This document shows positions 2,275 to 51,401 of a stretch of DNA of 64,000 bases, one piece after another. Below the pieces are notes generated by a model, which worked only from the letters and a program-made list of their open reading frames with translations, ran no database searches and had not been told where the DNA came from. How positions within the stretch are numbered: the stretch's first letter is position 1; every line of letters begins with the position of its first letter. The DNA comes from Humisphaera borealis (GTDB taxonomy: Bacteria; Planctomycetota; Phycisphaerae; Tepidisphaerales; Tepidisphaeraceae), in contig NZ_CP063458.1 in assembly GCF_015169395.1 (NCBI RefSeq), forward strand, positions 434,001 through 498,000, read 5' to 3'. A program made the position numbers and the translations under genes.

Positions 2275-3333
2275 CTAGGCTGCCAAGGCTCGTTCCAGCT
2301 TCTCAGGATGCGCCGCCTGGGCGACGGCATCTTCTCGGCTGATGTACCCGTTGATGTACATCTGCTTGATCGAGTCATCCAGCGACTGCATGCCCAGCGC
2401 ACGGCTGGTCGCGATGATGTTGGGGATTTCGAAGATTCGGTTCTCGCGGATGCAGTTTCGAACGGCCGGCGTGCAAAGCATGATCTCGACGCCGGGAATC
2501 ATGCCCGGCTGGTCGGACCGCTTGAACAGCGTCTGGCTGATGACCGCCTGAAGCGTGTTGGCGAGCATCGAGCGGATCTGGTTCTGCTCGTCCGACGGGT
2601 AGATGTCGATGATGCGTTCGATCGTCTGGGGCGCGTTGACGGTGTGCAGCGTGCTGAACACCAGGTGGCCGGTTTCGGCGGCAGTAATTGCGGCGCTGGT
2701 GGTTTCCAGATCGCGCATTTCGCCGACCAGGATTACGTCCGGGTCCTGGCGCAGCGCGTGCCGCAGACCGCCGGAGAAGTCGGGGACGTCGGCGCCGACT
2801 TCGCGCTGCTCGATTGCCGACTTATTGCTGACAAATGCGTATTCGATCGGGTCTTCGAGCGTGATGATGTGGCCCTGCTCGCGCCGGTTGATCGAGTCGA
2901 TCATCGCCGCCAGCGTGGTGCTCTTGCCCGAGCCGGTGGGACCGGTGACGAGCACCAGGCCGCGGGGCATGTAAGTCAGTTTGTTGCAGATATCTGGCAG
3001 GAACAGCTGCTCGATCGGCCGGACCTTGTCATTGATGGTACGGATGGAGAGCGCGACGCTGTTGCGCTGATAGTGCGCGTTGACACGAAAGCGGCTCACG
3101 CCGGGGATCTCGTAGGAGAAGTCCGCGTCGCGGTGCTTCTCGAAGTCGGTCCAGCGCTTCTCGTTCATCATCTCTTTCGCCAGGCGAATCGCCCCTTCGG
3201 GCGTCACCATGGGGAAGTCGCTGTGCTGAACGATCGTGTGAATCCGGTAGAGCGGCGGAGCGCCGACCATGATGTGGACGTCGGACGCCTTGGCCTGGAC
3301 GGCGTTGCGGAGAATGTCGTTGAGAATGCTCAT
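2275..3333 (-). CDS. pilT: Type IV pilus retraction ATPase PilT
   Basis: 352 residues. PilT is the hexameric ATPase that depolymerises the pilus. The Walker A motif GPTGSGKST is at about residue 130, followed by the Asp-box and Walker B (DPDVILVGEMRD) and His-box (STLHTVNA) of secretion ATPases. Near the C-terminus AVRNCIRE matches the AIRNLIRE retraction motif, which separates PilT from PilB. The ATG at 3333 (MSILNDILRNAV) is chosen over a longer frame from 3360 because GGAG lies 6 bases upstream and because the extra nine residues come from a dispersed palindrome. It sits between pilB and pilC in the operon. Confidence 0.94.
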   Translation of the reverse strand: MSILNDILRNAVQAKASDVHIMVGAPPLYRIHTIVQHSDFPMVTPEGAIRLAKEMMNEKRWTDFEKHRDADFSYEIPGVSRFRVNAHYQRNSVALSIRTINDKVRPIEQLFLPDICNKLTYMPRGLVLVTGPTGSGKSTTLAAMIDSINRREQGHIITLEDPIEYAFVSNKSAIEQREVGADVPDFSGGLRHALRQDPDVILVGEMRDLETTSAAITAAETGHLVFSTLHTVNAPQTIERIIDIYPSDEQNQIRSMLANTLQAVISQTLFKRSDQPGMIPGVEIMLCTPAVRNCIRENRIFEIPNIIATSRALGMQSLDDSIKQMYINGYISREDAVAQAAHPEKLERALAA

Positions 3334-3347
3334 GGTTCTCCAGTGCT

Positions 3348-3374
3348 TCGCGTCCGCCAAGGCGGACCCTACAA
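3348..3374. repeat. Dispersed short palindrome GTCCGCCAAGGCGGAC, copy 1
   Basis: The core GTCCGCC-AA-GGCGGAC is a perfect palindrome with flanks TCGC and CCTACAA. Nearly the same word occurs at 16551-16577 and 22540-22563 in this window. This copy is just upstream of the pilT ribosome binding site. Confidence 0.85.
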
Positions 3375-14798: not shown

Positions 14799-14961
14799 CG
14801 TGGAGGATGGACATTCTTGTCTGTCACTCGGGACCAAGACACCGCATCGAACGTCAGGGAGCGTTCCGAGTCCCCAGAAAAAACGCGGAAACGCAGAAGG
14901 TTCCCGTCCTTCGTGAGCCGGTTTTGCCCCGAGTGACAGACAAGAATGTCTGTCCTCCACG
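14799..14961. repeat. 34-bp-arm inverted repeat upstream of trxB
   Basis: Arms 14799-14832 and 14928-14961 match at 32 of 34 positions. Both mismatches are G-T on the plus strand, hence G-U pairs in the plus-strand transcript running from the dehydrogenase gene to trxB. The right arm also contains its own palindrome GACAGACAAGAATGTCTGTC. The 95-bp interior shows no other feature. Confidence 0.9.
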
Positions 14962-16173: not shown

Positions 16174-16588
16174 GGCAATCACCCGCCTCAACCTCCCGAG
16201 AAAGCTCCATCTCCGCTCCAAGGCGGATTTCGATTCGGTCTTTGATGCCCGAACGCGCGAGATTCGCGGGCCGATCGCCGTCCACGCCCGGCCGAACGGG
16301 TTAACGCATCACCGCTTCGGAATGAGCGTCAGCCGCAAGGTGGGCATCGCCGCCAAGCGCAACGTGATCCGCCGCCGGCTGCGCGAGGCGTATCGGCTCT
16401 TGCAGCACGACCTGCCGACGCATTTCGACCTGGTGGTTGTCGTCCGTCCGCATCCGCCGTTGATGTTGGCGGAGTATCAGAAGCTATTGAGCGGGGCGAT
16501 GGTGAAGCTACATGCGGTGTGGGGGAAGCGAGTCCCCCTTCCGGTGCCCGTCGCGTCCGCCAAGGCGGACCCTACAATCTCGCCGTGA
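16109..16588 (+). CDS. rnpA: Ribonuclease P protein component
   Basis: 159 residues; typical RnpA is about 120. The core (residues 28-140) carries the family's conserved FGMSVSRKVGIAAKRNVIRR followed by RRLREAYRL, the RNA-binding RNR-like motif, here KRNVIRRRLRE. RnpA assists the RNase P RNA in maturing tRNA 5' ends. The only available start before the core is GTG at 16109, so the first 24 residues are encoded by the palindromic repeat arm, and the last ten (SAKADPTISP) by another dispersed palindrome. The stop TGA overlaps the GTG start of yidD. No rpmH gene is found upstream, where it is commonly located. Confidence 0.9.
   Translation: MGKTPHVRPLTPALSPEYSGEGAITRLNLPRKLHLRSKADFDSVFDARTREIRGPIAVHARPNGLTHHRFGMSVSRKVGIAAKRNVIRRRLREAYRLLQHDLPTHFDLVVVVRPHPPLMLAEYQKLLSGAMVKLHAVWGKRVPLPVPVASAKADPTISP
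16551..16577. repeat. Dispersed short palindrome GTCCGCCAAGGCGGAC, copy 2
   Basis: Identical over 27 bases to the copy at 3348-3374. Here it lies inside the 3' end of rnpA and immediately before the yidD start. Confidence 0.9.
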
Positions 16589-22539: not shown

Positions 22540-22563
22540 TCGCGTCCGCCAAGGCGGACCCTA
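22540..22563. repeat. Dispersed short palindrome GTCCGCCAAGGCGGAC, copy 3
   Basis: 24 bases identical to the copies at 3348 and 16551. Its outer edge CCCTA supplies the TAG stop codon of the minus-strand Uma2 gene. Confidence 0.9.
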
Positions 22564-23166
22564 GTCGGCGATCAAATCTCGAACGGGAACCGTGCCACAT
22601 TCCATTCCATCGATCCTGATCGGCACGTCATCACCAAATGCATAGACCTTGAGGTCGCGGTAGAGCGCCTCAGGGCCTGCAACTGGTAGGGTGAACACCT
22701 CCACCTGCCGCTCGCCAAGATTGATCACCCAGTAACAGCTGAATCCTGCCCGGGCGTATAGCCGTCCTTTGTCGCGGCGATCCAGCAGAAGCGACGTCCC
22801 AGAGACCTCGACCAGCATCGCGATGTCGGCAGCGCCGGGATGGTGATGGGTGCGCGTCCGCGGTGAGCCGCGGACGATGGCCAGGTCGGGCTCCGGCTCG
22901 CTGTCGTCGGTGGTGATCGCCGACTGCACGCGAACACGCCAACCCGTGGGCAGCCGAGCGGACAAGGCTTCATCGGTCAATTCGATCGTGGCGTCGTGAC
23001 GGGCGTCTCGCGGCATTTTCGGGATGATCCACCCTTCCAGCAGTTCGACCGGCTCATCCTCGGCCAAGACCCCCGTTTCGATCATGCGATGATACTCGGC
23101 AACAGAGAATCGCCGAACGGGGACCGGCGGCAGTGCGGGCGAAAGTGGTTGAAACGACAGCAGCAT
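22561..23166 (-). CDS. Uma2-family putative endonuclease-fold protein
   Basis: 201 residues, typical for Uma2 (DUF820). The fold is a PD-(D/E)xK-like restriction endonuclease core. The N-terminal segment RRFSVAEYHRMIETGVL with ELLEGWII, the acidic EPEPDLAIVRG and the later VEVSGTSLLLDRRDKGRLYA match the family's conserved blocks (Glu, Asp, Glu-x-Lys-like). Function is unknown in vivo; the family is greatly expanded in cyanobacteria and planctomycetes. The stop codon is the TAG of a dispersed palindrome. A second, more AT-rich homologue lies at 27738-28352. Confidence 0.9.
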   Translation of the reverse strand: MLLSFQPLSPALPPVPVRRFSVAEYHRMIETGVLAEDEPVELLEGWIIPKMPRDARHDATIELTDEALSARLPTGWRVRVQSAITTDDSEPEPDLAIVRGSPRTRTHHHPGAADIAMLVEVSGTSLLLDRRDKGRLYARAGFSCYWVINLGERQVEVFTLPVAGPEALYRDLKVYAFGDDVPIRIDGMECGTVPVRDLIAD

Positions 23167-48048: not shown

Positions 48049-49527
<1,479 letters not shown>

Positions 49528-49554: not shown

Positions 49555-49691
49555 GTAGGGTGGGCGTACTCGCCCACGCGGGTCCGTAACCCGTTCATGC
49601 GGCACGGCCAGGCGTGGGCGAGTACGTTGCCCACGGTTTACCCGTCTCTCGCGACCTCACCGTCCCGCGTGGGCGAGTACGCCCACCCTAC
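49555..49691. repeat. GTAGGGTGGGCG-family elements between DUF1501 gene and ridA
   Basis: Arms 49555-49582 and 49664-49691 are exactly complementary over 28 bases; each contains its own palindrome GTGGGCG-AGTA-CGCCCAC. A third degenerate unit (GTGGGCGAGTACGTTGCCCAC) lies between them at about 49614. The ridA stop codon is inside the right arm. Confidence 0.93.
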
Positions 49692-50086
49692 GATTTCGGC
49701 GGGATGCGGGCGATTACCTTGATCTCGAACTGAAATCCCGACAGCCACGTCACGCCGACCGCTGTCGCGTTGGGCTTGGGCTCGCGGGGAAAAGCCTTGG
49801 CCAACGCGGCGATCATCAGGCCGGCAGACGCCTCGGGGTCGACGAGAAACATCGTCAGGTCGATCACGTCATCGAACGTACAGCCGGCCTTGGTGAGCAC
49901 CGCTTCCAGGCTGTCGAAGGCGAGCTGAATCTGGGCATCCAGGACGGGCTCCGGCGTTCCGTCTTCGCGGGCGCCGACCATGCCGGAGACGAACAGCAGG
50001 TCACCGGACTGAATGGCGGGGGAGTAGCCATGCTGTTTGTACAGGGCGTGCGGACGGTCGGGGAAGATGGCGTGGCGGGTATGCAT
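49688..50086 (-). CDS. RidA-family reactive enamine/imine deaminase
   Basis: 132 residues. Conserved blocks are YSPAIQSGDLLFVSGMVGA, QIQLAFDSLEAVLTKAGCTF and DVIDLTMFLVDP, with the C-terminal VAVGVTWL-type strand and EIKVIARIP. RidA proteins hydrolyse reactive 2-aminoacrylate and related intermediates; the invariant catalytic Arg of the RidA subgroup is not clearly present (the region reads PNATAVGV), so it may belong to a different Rid subgroup. AAGGA lies 9 bases before the ATG at 50086. The TAG stop is the edge of a palindromic repeat. No threonine deaminase is adjacent, although one lies 3.5 kb away. Confidence 0.85.
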   Translation of the reverse strand: MHTRHAIFPDRPHALYKQHGYSPAIQSGDLLFVSGMVGAREDGTPEPVLDAQIQLAFDSLEAVLTKAGCTFDDVIDLTMFLVDPEASAGLMIAALAKAFPREPKPNATAVGVTWLSGFQFEIKVIARIPPKS

Positions 50087-50113
50087 GGTTGGTTTGTCCT
50101 TCGGCGTTTGTCG

Positions 50114-50151
50114 TTCGTAGGGTGGGCGTACGTCGCCCACGGTTCAGCGTG
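50114..50151. repeat. GTAGGGTGGGCG element upstream of ridA
   Basis: 38 bases identical to 50736-50773. It starts 28 bp upstream of the ridA ATG and contains the palindrome GGGCGTAC-GTCGCCC. Confidence 0.9.
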
Positions 50152-50179
50152 CCGCAATGCCGAGAAACTTGCTCCCGAG

Positions 50180-50683
50180 CTAGACCGCAAAGTAGTGGAT
50201 GTATCGCAACGTGCCGTCCGACGCGCACTCCGCGGTGATGTCGAACAGACCTAGATTGAACGTCCAAACCGGTTCGCTCCGGCCGTCGGTCCGGCCGTTG
50301 CCCACTGCAGTATTAAGGGTGTCGACATGCGATCCCGGCACCAACTCGCAGTAACCGTTCTGGCCGATGACATCACACCGCCGAGCGGGTGGACCGTCAC
50401 CGCCCGAGTCGATCAAGCAAACGCCGACATCACACACTCGGCCGTCGCGGTCGAGCCAGAACATCGCGCCTAGCGTGTTGTAGCGCACGACCTTCTCGAT
50501 AAAGGAATGTCGGTTCGATGGTCTGCCAATTGTGCGGAGTTGCGCGGGGTCACAAGGCAGGCGCACGTCGCAAACCGTCTGGACGGTTGTGTCAATGACA
50601 ATGTGGTTGGCCCGTGGTAATGGCCAGTCCGCAACAGGGTCTTGACCGAGTTTGCGGAAGAACTTGGTTACGCCGTTAAACAT
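50180..50683 (-). CDS. Hypothetical protein in accessory cluster
   Basis: 167 residues from the ATG at 50683 (MFNGVTKFFRKLGQDPVADW). No membrane segment or signal. It contains IEKVVRYNTLGAMFWLDRDG and many Asp/Cys residues, and looks like a compact soluble domain, but I recognise no family. The gene lies between two identical palindromic elements. Its base composition is less GC-biased than that of the core genes, and it belongs to a run of small accessory genes. Confidence 0.6.
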   Translation of the reverse strand: MFNGVTKFFRKLGQDPVADWPLPRANHIVIDTTVQTVCDVRLPCDPAQLRTIGRPSNRHSFIEKVVRYNTLGAMFWLDRDGRVCDVGVCLIDSGGDGPPARRCDVIGQNGYCELVPGSHVDTLNTAVGNGRTDGRSEPVWTFNLGLFDITAECASDGTLRYIHYFAV

Positions 50684-50735
50684 GAAGGTTCTTTCAGCGG
50701 GGTCGCTCGCGCTCCCATACACGAGACTTCTTAGC

Positions 50736-50819
50736 TTCGTAGGGTGGGCGTACGTCGCCCACGGTTCAGCGTGTCACGTGGACGAAGCGTGTCACGTGGG
50801 CGACATACGCCCACCCTAC
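50736..50819. repeat. Inverted pair of GTAGGGTGGGCG elements
   Basis: A 38-base copy at 50736-50773 is identical to 50114-50151. An inverted 27-base copy (50793-50819) pairs with it, with one mismatch that is a G-U pair on the minus (transcribed) strand. The TAG stop codon of the adjacent immunity-type gene is inside the inverted copy. Confidence 0.93.
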
Positions 50820-51307
50820 CTCGGCCCCGCCCGCTTCATGCGGTCGGTTTGCAGGGCGGCGATGACCAGGTCGCTCACCTCGGCGGGAAGACGCTCGATC
50901 TGCCATGACCTTTCCGCGGCGACATCCTGGCCGGCGGCGTGGACCGCCTTGAGAGCATAGACGGCCGCGCCCAAGCTGTGATCGGCAAAATGGGCGGTCG
51001 CGACGGCGTGGCCGGCGGACCTTGCGGCGGCAACCGCCGAGGGGTCGCTCCCGGCGGCGATGCATTGCCTGGCGGCGGCGTGCGACGCGACGGCCGCCTT
51101 CTGGGCGACGCCCACCCGAACCTCGCCCCGGGCCCACGCCCGGGCGGTGTCGATCGCGCGTCGCGGCCGGTCGTCGCCGGTGGCATGGGCCAGGAACAGC
51201 GGCAGCACATGCTCGCCACAATCCGCCGCCCAGGCCGACAACAGTTGGTGGTGCCGCCGGGCCAGCGGCCCGCCACGATGTTCGGCGATGAATCGGCGGT
51301 CCCGCAT
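50816..51307 (-). CDS. Putative immunity protein (Imm-5-like)
   Basis: 163 residues. MRDRRFIAEHRGGPLARRHH at the start, the repeated RARAWARGEVRVGVAQKAAV and the central ARSAGHAVATAHFADHSLGA followed by AVYALKAV match a family annotated 'putative immunity protein', an all-helical fold with repeated HAAA/GHAVATAH motifs. Such proteins normally protect against a polymorphic toxin, but no toxin gene is nearby. The TAG stop codon is part of a palindromic element. No signal peptide. Confidence 0.75.
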   Translation of the reverse strand: MRDRRFIAEHRGGPLARRHHQLLSAWAADCGEHVLPLFLAHATGDDRPRRAIDTARAWARGEVRVGVAQKAAVASHAAARQCIAAGSDPSAVAAARSAGHAVATAHFADHSLGAAVYALKAVHAAGQDVAAERSWQIERLPAEVSDLVIAALQTDRMKRAGPR

Positions 51308-51373
51308 GATCGACGATCACTGTCGTCGATCTCGGGGCGGATGTCAGCGCGTCTTTGGCGCGCAAATGATAGC

Positions 51374-51401
51374 TCGTAGGGTGGGCGTACGTCGCCCACG
51401 G
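51374..51401. repeat. GTAGGGTGGGCG element upstream of the immunity-type gene
   Basis: 28 bases identical to the copies at 50114 and 50736 and in the same orientation, 66 bp upstream of the start codon. The similarity fades after GCCCACGG. Confidence 0.88.

Follow-up and report, generated by a model that had tools for sequence, protein, structure and literature searches.

How do genes come to end exactly on the edge of a palindromic repeat? The question is raised by a window of 64,000 nt from the genome of Humisphaera borealis, in which the minus-strand stop codons of ridA (TAG 49690-49688) and of an Imm5_like gene (TAG 50818-50816) lie within GTAGGGTGGGCG, and that of a Uma2 gene (TAG 22563-22561, also minus strand) lies within TAGGGTCCGCCTTGGCGGAC. 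The original prediction had placed the stops of ridA, an immunity-type gene and a Uma2 gene at these positions, and all three TAGs are indeed inside repeats. Two repeat families were also said to share the edge TAGGGT. This common edge is real: in both families it corresponds to GTAG, the conserved tag of REPs, and a short GC-rich hairpin comes next; the Uma2 copy, however, reads CTAG instead of GTAG. The copies and the genes ending on them are as follows.

3349..3372 (-): GTAG REP of the larger (GGTCCGCC) family, unfused to a stop
16552..16575 (-): GTAG REP of the larger (GGTCCGCC) family, unfused to a stop
22541..22564 (-): larger-family REP with CTAG instead of GTAG; its TAG at 22563-22561 is the Uma2 stop codon
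22561..23166 (-): Uma2-family gene, 201 aa, ending on the REP tag (PF05685, E 2.2e-22)
49555..49579 (+): GTAG REP of the smaller (GGTGGGCG) family
49667..49691 (-): GTAG REP of the smaller family, paired in inverted orientation with 49555-49579; the TAG at 49690-49688 is the ridA stop
49688..50086 (-): ridA-type gene, 132 aa, ending on the REP tag (PF01042, E 7.2e-23)
50117..50141 (+): GTAG REP of the smaller family, before the ridA start, unfused
50739..50763 (+): GTAG REP of the smaller family, unfused
50794..50819 (-): GTAG REP of the smaller family, paired in inverted orientation with 50739-50763; the TAG at 50818-50816 is the Imm5_like stop
50816..51307 (-): Imm5_like gene, 163 aa, ending on the REP tag (PF21805, E 5.6e-39)
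51376..51400 (+): GTAG REP of the smaller family, unfused

The TAG of the copy at 49555..49579 begins 31 nt after the start of the TGA stop of a DUF1501 gene (48049-49527).

Both repeats belong to the GTAG-type REP elements. Within the window alone, the 3 matches to TAGGGTCCGCC, the larger family, lack significance, since 6 of 100 shuffled sequences contain at least 3; near-matches to TAGGGTGGGCG, at 8 against 1.09 expected, exceed chance. The source genome (G000; 7.19 Mb, single contig) contains 247 copies of TAGGGTCCGCC, compared to 3 for a reversed-pattern control, and 15 exact copies of GTAGGGTGGGCG, the smaller family, compared to 3 for its own reversed control. High, dispersed copy number is thus a property of the larger family; the smaller one has only its 15 copies, six of them packed into 1.9 kb of the window (49555-51400). 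GTAG stands at one end, outside the paired stem, and is complete in 242 of the 247 larger-family copies, the G being absent in only 5, including the Uma2 copy. Both hairpins fold better than their own shuffles, and their length of 24-26 nt fits the 20-40 bp of short REP palindromes. Inverted pairs are frequent, with 26 exact pairs among the first 100 of the 247 copies, and GTAG is found at both outward ends of paired copies, whether fused to a stop or not. At one locus (L132, about 3000-3234), three GTAG repeats follow each other in the same orientation with a 117-nt spacing and similar sequence in between.

The window segment that holds the smaller-family cluster, ridA and the Imm5_like gene (49555-51400) is perhaps an acquired stretch. 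The ridA product shares 80-81% identity with homologues from Polyangium and Armatimonadota, and of 61 genomes searched only 3, counting its own, have a match to the Imm5_like gene. Between two of the repeats, a minus-strand ORF of 180 codons (50180-50722) gives no Pfam match.

To what extent do such fusions recur? We surveyed the surroundings of the first 100 of the 247 larger-family copies (0-3.03 Mb), with gene ends assigned by a hexamer coding model of our own, for which 196 long ORFs served as training set, and a greedy choice of ORFs rather than by a published gene finder. A gene 3' end lies on the outward side of the tag in 68 of these 100 copies, and in 35 the tag's TAG, the codon usually called amber, is the stop codon itself. 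The other gene-facing copies comprise 14 located 1-33 nt past the stop, 14 further off and 5 called as overlapping a gene. Of these five, one (L164, -379) has a coding score in the TAG frame and is probably one more fusion, outside the 35 counted; the remaining four have no coding signal there. When the 150 nt preceding each of these 100 repeats were scored, the coding frame entering the repeat was the TAG frame in 37 cases, and the two remaining forward frames accounted for 2 and 1 cases, respectively; 29 copies showed coding on the opposite strand and 31 no coding. In the smaller family, 3 of 15 copies are fused (ridA, Imm5_like and a gyrA-like gene). In a genome of the same genus (G001), the TAG frame carries a coding signal at 6 of 13 copies. 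In G024, all 14 copies were called non-coding, a result of little weight since the model was trained on G000; two of them have open frames of 331 and 397 codons running into the TAG. At locus L124 (3068-3133), one inverted pair gives stops to both of its convergent neighbors, a DUF1501 and a DUF58 gene.

Positions at stop codons make up 36 of 87 repeats (41%), compared to 62 of 390 (16%) ordinary GTAG sites outside gene interiors, the latter drawn from loci chosen for holding repeats (p 6e-7). The original prediction depended on genome-wide copies being enriched at stop codons, and enrichment is strong by fusion count (35/100), by frame (37:2:1) and by this comparison (36/87 vs 62/390). As the search pattern itself contains TAG and might favor survivors, we repeated the search with the hairpin alone, which yielded 238 exact hairpins in the genome. 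In a hairpin-anchored subset of 99, GTAGG is present on 86 and 34 are fused, indicating that survivorship bias is small.

A further control is provided by a third family, GGGGCAGRCATTCTTG, which has 34 genome copies; 30 of them were read, and 29 of these carry the tag GTGG. Thirteen of the 30 have a gene 3' end on the tag side; none of the 13 lies at a stop or less than 10 nt after one, and one sits inside a long fused frame (thiE/RAYT-like). Fusion is thus 0/13 in the GTGG family versus 35/68 in the larger GTAG family (p 4e-4). Since GTGG cannot supply a TAG and none of its 13 gene-facing copies is fused, the effect belongs to TAG and not to gene-end hairpins in general. An explanation in which hairpins are kept right after genes to end or protect transcripts, whatever their tag, could invoke E. 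coli REPs, where copies within 15 nt of stops are described as affecting translation (PMC12306157, in the part consulted). However, a GTGG hairpin family that stays away from stops is hard to accommodate in that explanation, and both the frame bias and the exact fusion concern TAG rather than the hairpin. We regard it as very unlikely.

For repeats of this kind the phenomenon is known: the effect is already stated in the available part of Di Nocera et al. 2013 (PMC3733652), according to which GTAG REPs often supply TAG stops to flanking ORFs and which names Planctomycetes among the hosts. As far as the consulted text of that report describes them, its REPs resemble ours in the GTAG at one end, the short palindrome, the inverted pairs, the location near gene 3' ends and the use of TAG as an ORF stop; in contrast, the strings GGTCCGCC and GGGTGGGC are absent from its main text. 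Among other described REPs, an H. influenzae element, GTAGGGTGGGCTTcAGCCCACC, listed in Table 1 of Nunvar et al. 2010 (PMC2817692, the part consulted), has a start resembling that of our smaller family. The portion of PMC3733652 consulted says 'often' and gives no count, whereas here a count (35/100) is accompanied by the frame test and the GTGG control. In the titles and abstracts surveyed, mostly of open-access papers, we found no count of REP stop fusion or comparison of tags. With TAG serving as the neighbor's stop in about a third of the copies examined, the case is stronger than the earlier report for such repeats, and a passing remark of the REP literature becomes a counted effect with a within-genome control. 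A genome with about a third of copies fused also offers a clean system in which to study the survival of short mobile repeats where genes are densely packed.

We then considered what fusion does to the proteins. Among Pfam matches for the 38 fused proteins, 3 of which have no match, no C-terminal domain is cut off. The profile ends 2-5 residues from the stop in FlgC, FlgK, hopene cyclase, 6PGD, a DUF1501 protein, a PDZ peptidase, PhoH and RidA. FlgC terminates at the same residue in 20 of 21 other genomes; its length equals that of the G001 protein, whose stop is TGA. Relative to G001, RNase III lacks 6 residues and 6PGD lacks 25; the position of the G000 TAG in 6PGD is occupied by CAG in G001. 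Of 22 6PGD orthologues, 3 are shorter, 2 equal and 17 longer, and one further orthologue ran off its contig; in two other genera (G016 and G006), 6PGD ends in AAG TAG without a repeat. All nine hopene cyclase orthologues are longer, by 1-6 residues. PhoH and RidA are not clearly shortened. Of 21 PhoH orthologues, 10 are shorter, 3 equal and 8 longer; of 81 RidA orthologues, 27 are shorter, 8 have equal length and 46 are longer, and the two closest ones are shorter by a single residue. Imm5_like has one usable orthologue, 10 residues longer at 41% identity. Taken together, the lengths of orthologues and of the G001 proteins indicate no gross truncation and some trimming of tails. The idea that repeats cut genes short and left damaged proteins behind could draw on the 25 and 6 residues missing from 6PGD and RNase III relative to G001; with all C-terminal domains uncut and the ends of FlgC, PhoH and RidA in the normal range, it is scarcely credible.

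Comparison of C-termini had been suggested as a means to separate target choice at stop codons (equal length) from truncation (shorter length). On this criterion FlgC, at equal length, would fit target choice, and RNase III and 6PGD some trimming; the invariant end of FlgC also counts in favor of a supplied stop. As for the two alternatives themselves, a supplied stop is the better reading, but without the strong truncation originally attached to it, since genes keep their natural end or lose a short tail. The supplied stop is preferred because the TAG belongs to the tag of the element, as seen at both ends of pairs, on fused and unfused copies alike, and at an orthologous pair in the sister genome.

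We therefore favor, with a probability of roughly two in three, a model in which the in-frame stop arrives with the repeat itself, and copies survive where a gene ends naturally or its end is dispensable. TAG being a stop codon, and the larger-family hairpin having no stop in the other two forward frames, the element, an unpaired GTAG tetranucleotide followed by a short GC-rich hairpin, would close a reading frame exactly at its own edge whenever a copy falls in the correct frame at a gene 3' end. In-frame copies would keep the natural end of the protein or trim a dispensable tail and would be tolerated; out-of-frame copies would append a hairpin-encoded tail, and they are rarely seen. We infer that the pattern was made by selection acting on inserted copies and not by a preference for existing TAG stops as targets. 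Fusion, its frequency, the frame bias, the dependence on TAG revealed by the GTGG control and near-normal protein lengths are direct observations. One count goes against this model: 35 copies at a single position versus 14 over the next 33 exceeds what even insertion and a frame filter would give for proteins, such as FlgC, in which no trimming is tolerated, and calls in addition for an insertion bias towards gene ends or for better retention there. Further points against it are the lack of clear shortening in PhoH and RidA, the repeat-free AAG TAG ends of 6PGD in two other genera, and the absence of a RAYT flanked by exact copies of either family among 11 Y1_Tnp loci.

The single-base peak at the stop would be natural if the gene's TAG came first, that is, if repeats insert at or beside a (G)TAG that was already present, stops being the sites where this is harmless. 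The near absence of out-of-frame copies would follow as well, as would the end of FlgC precisely at the ancestral residue; and the AAG TAG ends of 6PGD without a repeat in G016 and G006 suggest that the TAG may predate the repeat in that gene. However, GTAG is present on both ends of pairs, so that at least one must be element-borne, and the single L124 pair supplies the stops of two convergent genes. From ordinary GTAG sites outside gene interiors, 16% on stops would be expected and not the observed 41%, and the same-genus genome has TGA as its FlgC stop and CAG in 6PGD. We consider such a choice of target rather unlikely.

Returning to the supplied stop, better retention of fused ends could be the factor missing behind the single-base peak. 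Once the tag is a stop codon, loss of the REP would cause read-through, so that the fused half of a pair would be protected while its free partner decays. We put this forward tentatively, as a possibility clearly less likely to be right than wrong. Among intact ends, 10 of 53 are fused when the partner is exact, compared to 13 of 26 when it has decayed and 12 of 21 when there is none (p 0.0076 and 0.0004); the same gradient would be expected if single REPs simply insert at stops. The Uma2 copy, in which the G of the tag is missing and TAG is present, is also consistent with such protection. If it holds, GTAG would serve both recognition by the transposase and a safe, sticky landing at gene ends.

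Comparison of G000 and G001 at the FlgC, 6PGD, RNase III and L152 sites gave no clean empty site: genes there share about 70-83% DNA identity, and the stretch from the stop to the next gene cannot be aligned. The window near 14870, considered as an empty site for a G001 repeat (L179:2401), was rejected, as the sequences are unalignable there. One REP pair does occupy the same place in both genomes, between an aldolase-type gene and its neighbor (L131:3055-3161 in G000, L180:1364-1460 in G001), with flanking genes at about 80% alignment identity. The two genomes have identical hairpins at the fused end; the far hairpin differs by 1 base and the spacer is scrambled. The aldolase gene takes its stop from the tag in both genomes, with one extra codon in G001. 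Unless the two pairs arose by independent insertions, at least one fusion is older than the split between G000 and G001, and hairpins last longer than their own spacer. The spacers of 36 pairs, nearly all unrelated among copies, fit the latter view. REPINs, as the consulted part of Bertels and Rainey 2011 describes them (PMC3116915), also consist of inverted REP pairs whose ends are conserved and whose spacer is less so; unlike in those, spacers here are essentially unrelated between copies, and between the two genomes at the one orthologous pair.

What moves these elements? In the parts of PMC8266576 consulted, GTAG is required for binding and cleavage by the E. coli REP transposase and is used in cleavage by other REP transposases. 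By analogy, a RAYT/TnpAREP would recognize GTAG in our two families, and we infer that a RAYT moves both. In contrast to RAYT/REP systems as presented in the consulted part of PMC2817692, none of 11 Y1_Tnp loci contains an exact copy of either GTAG family, no RAYT flanked by such copies was found among them, and the GTGG family flanks one RAYT-like gene; the GTAG families may have a divergent or unlisted transposase. At the GTGG locus (L011:37-1791; G000:C1 near 930440-930601), thiE reads in frame through a GTGG hairpin into the RAYT-like gene, forming a frame of 584 codons. The RAYT-like gene scores 77.7 bits against NF047646, under the cut-off of 80, and its transposase part is flanked by inverted GTGG hairpins.
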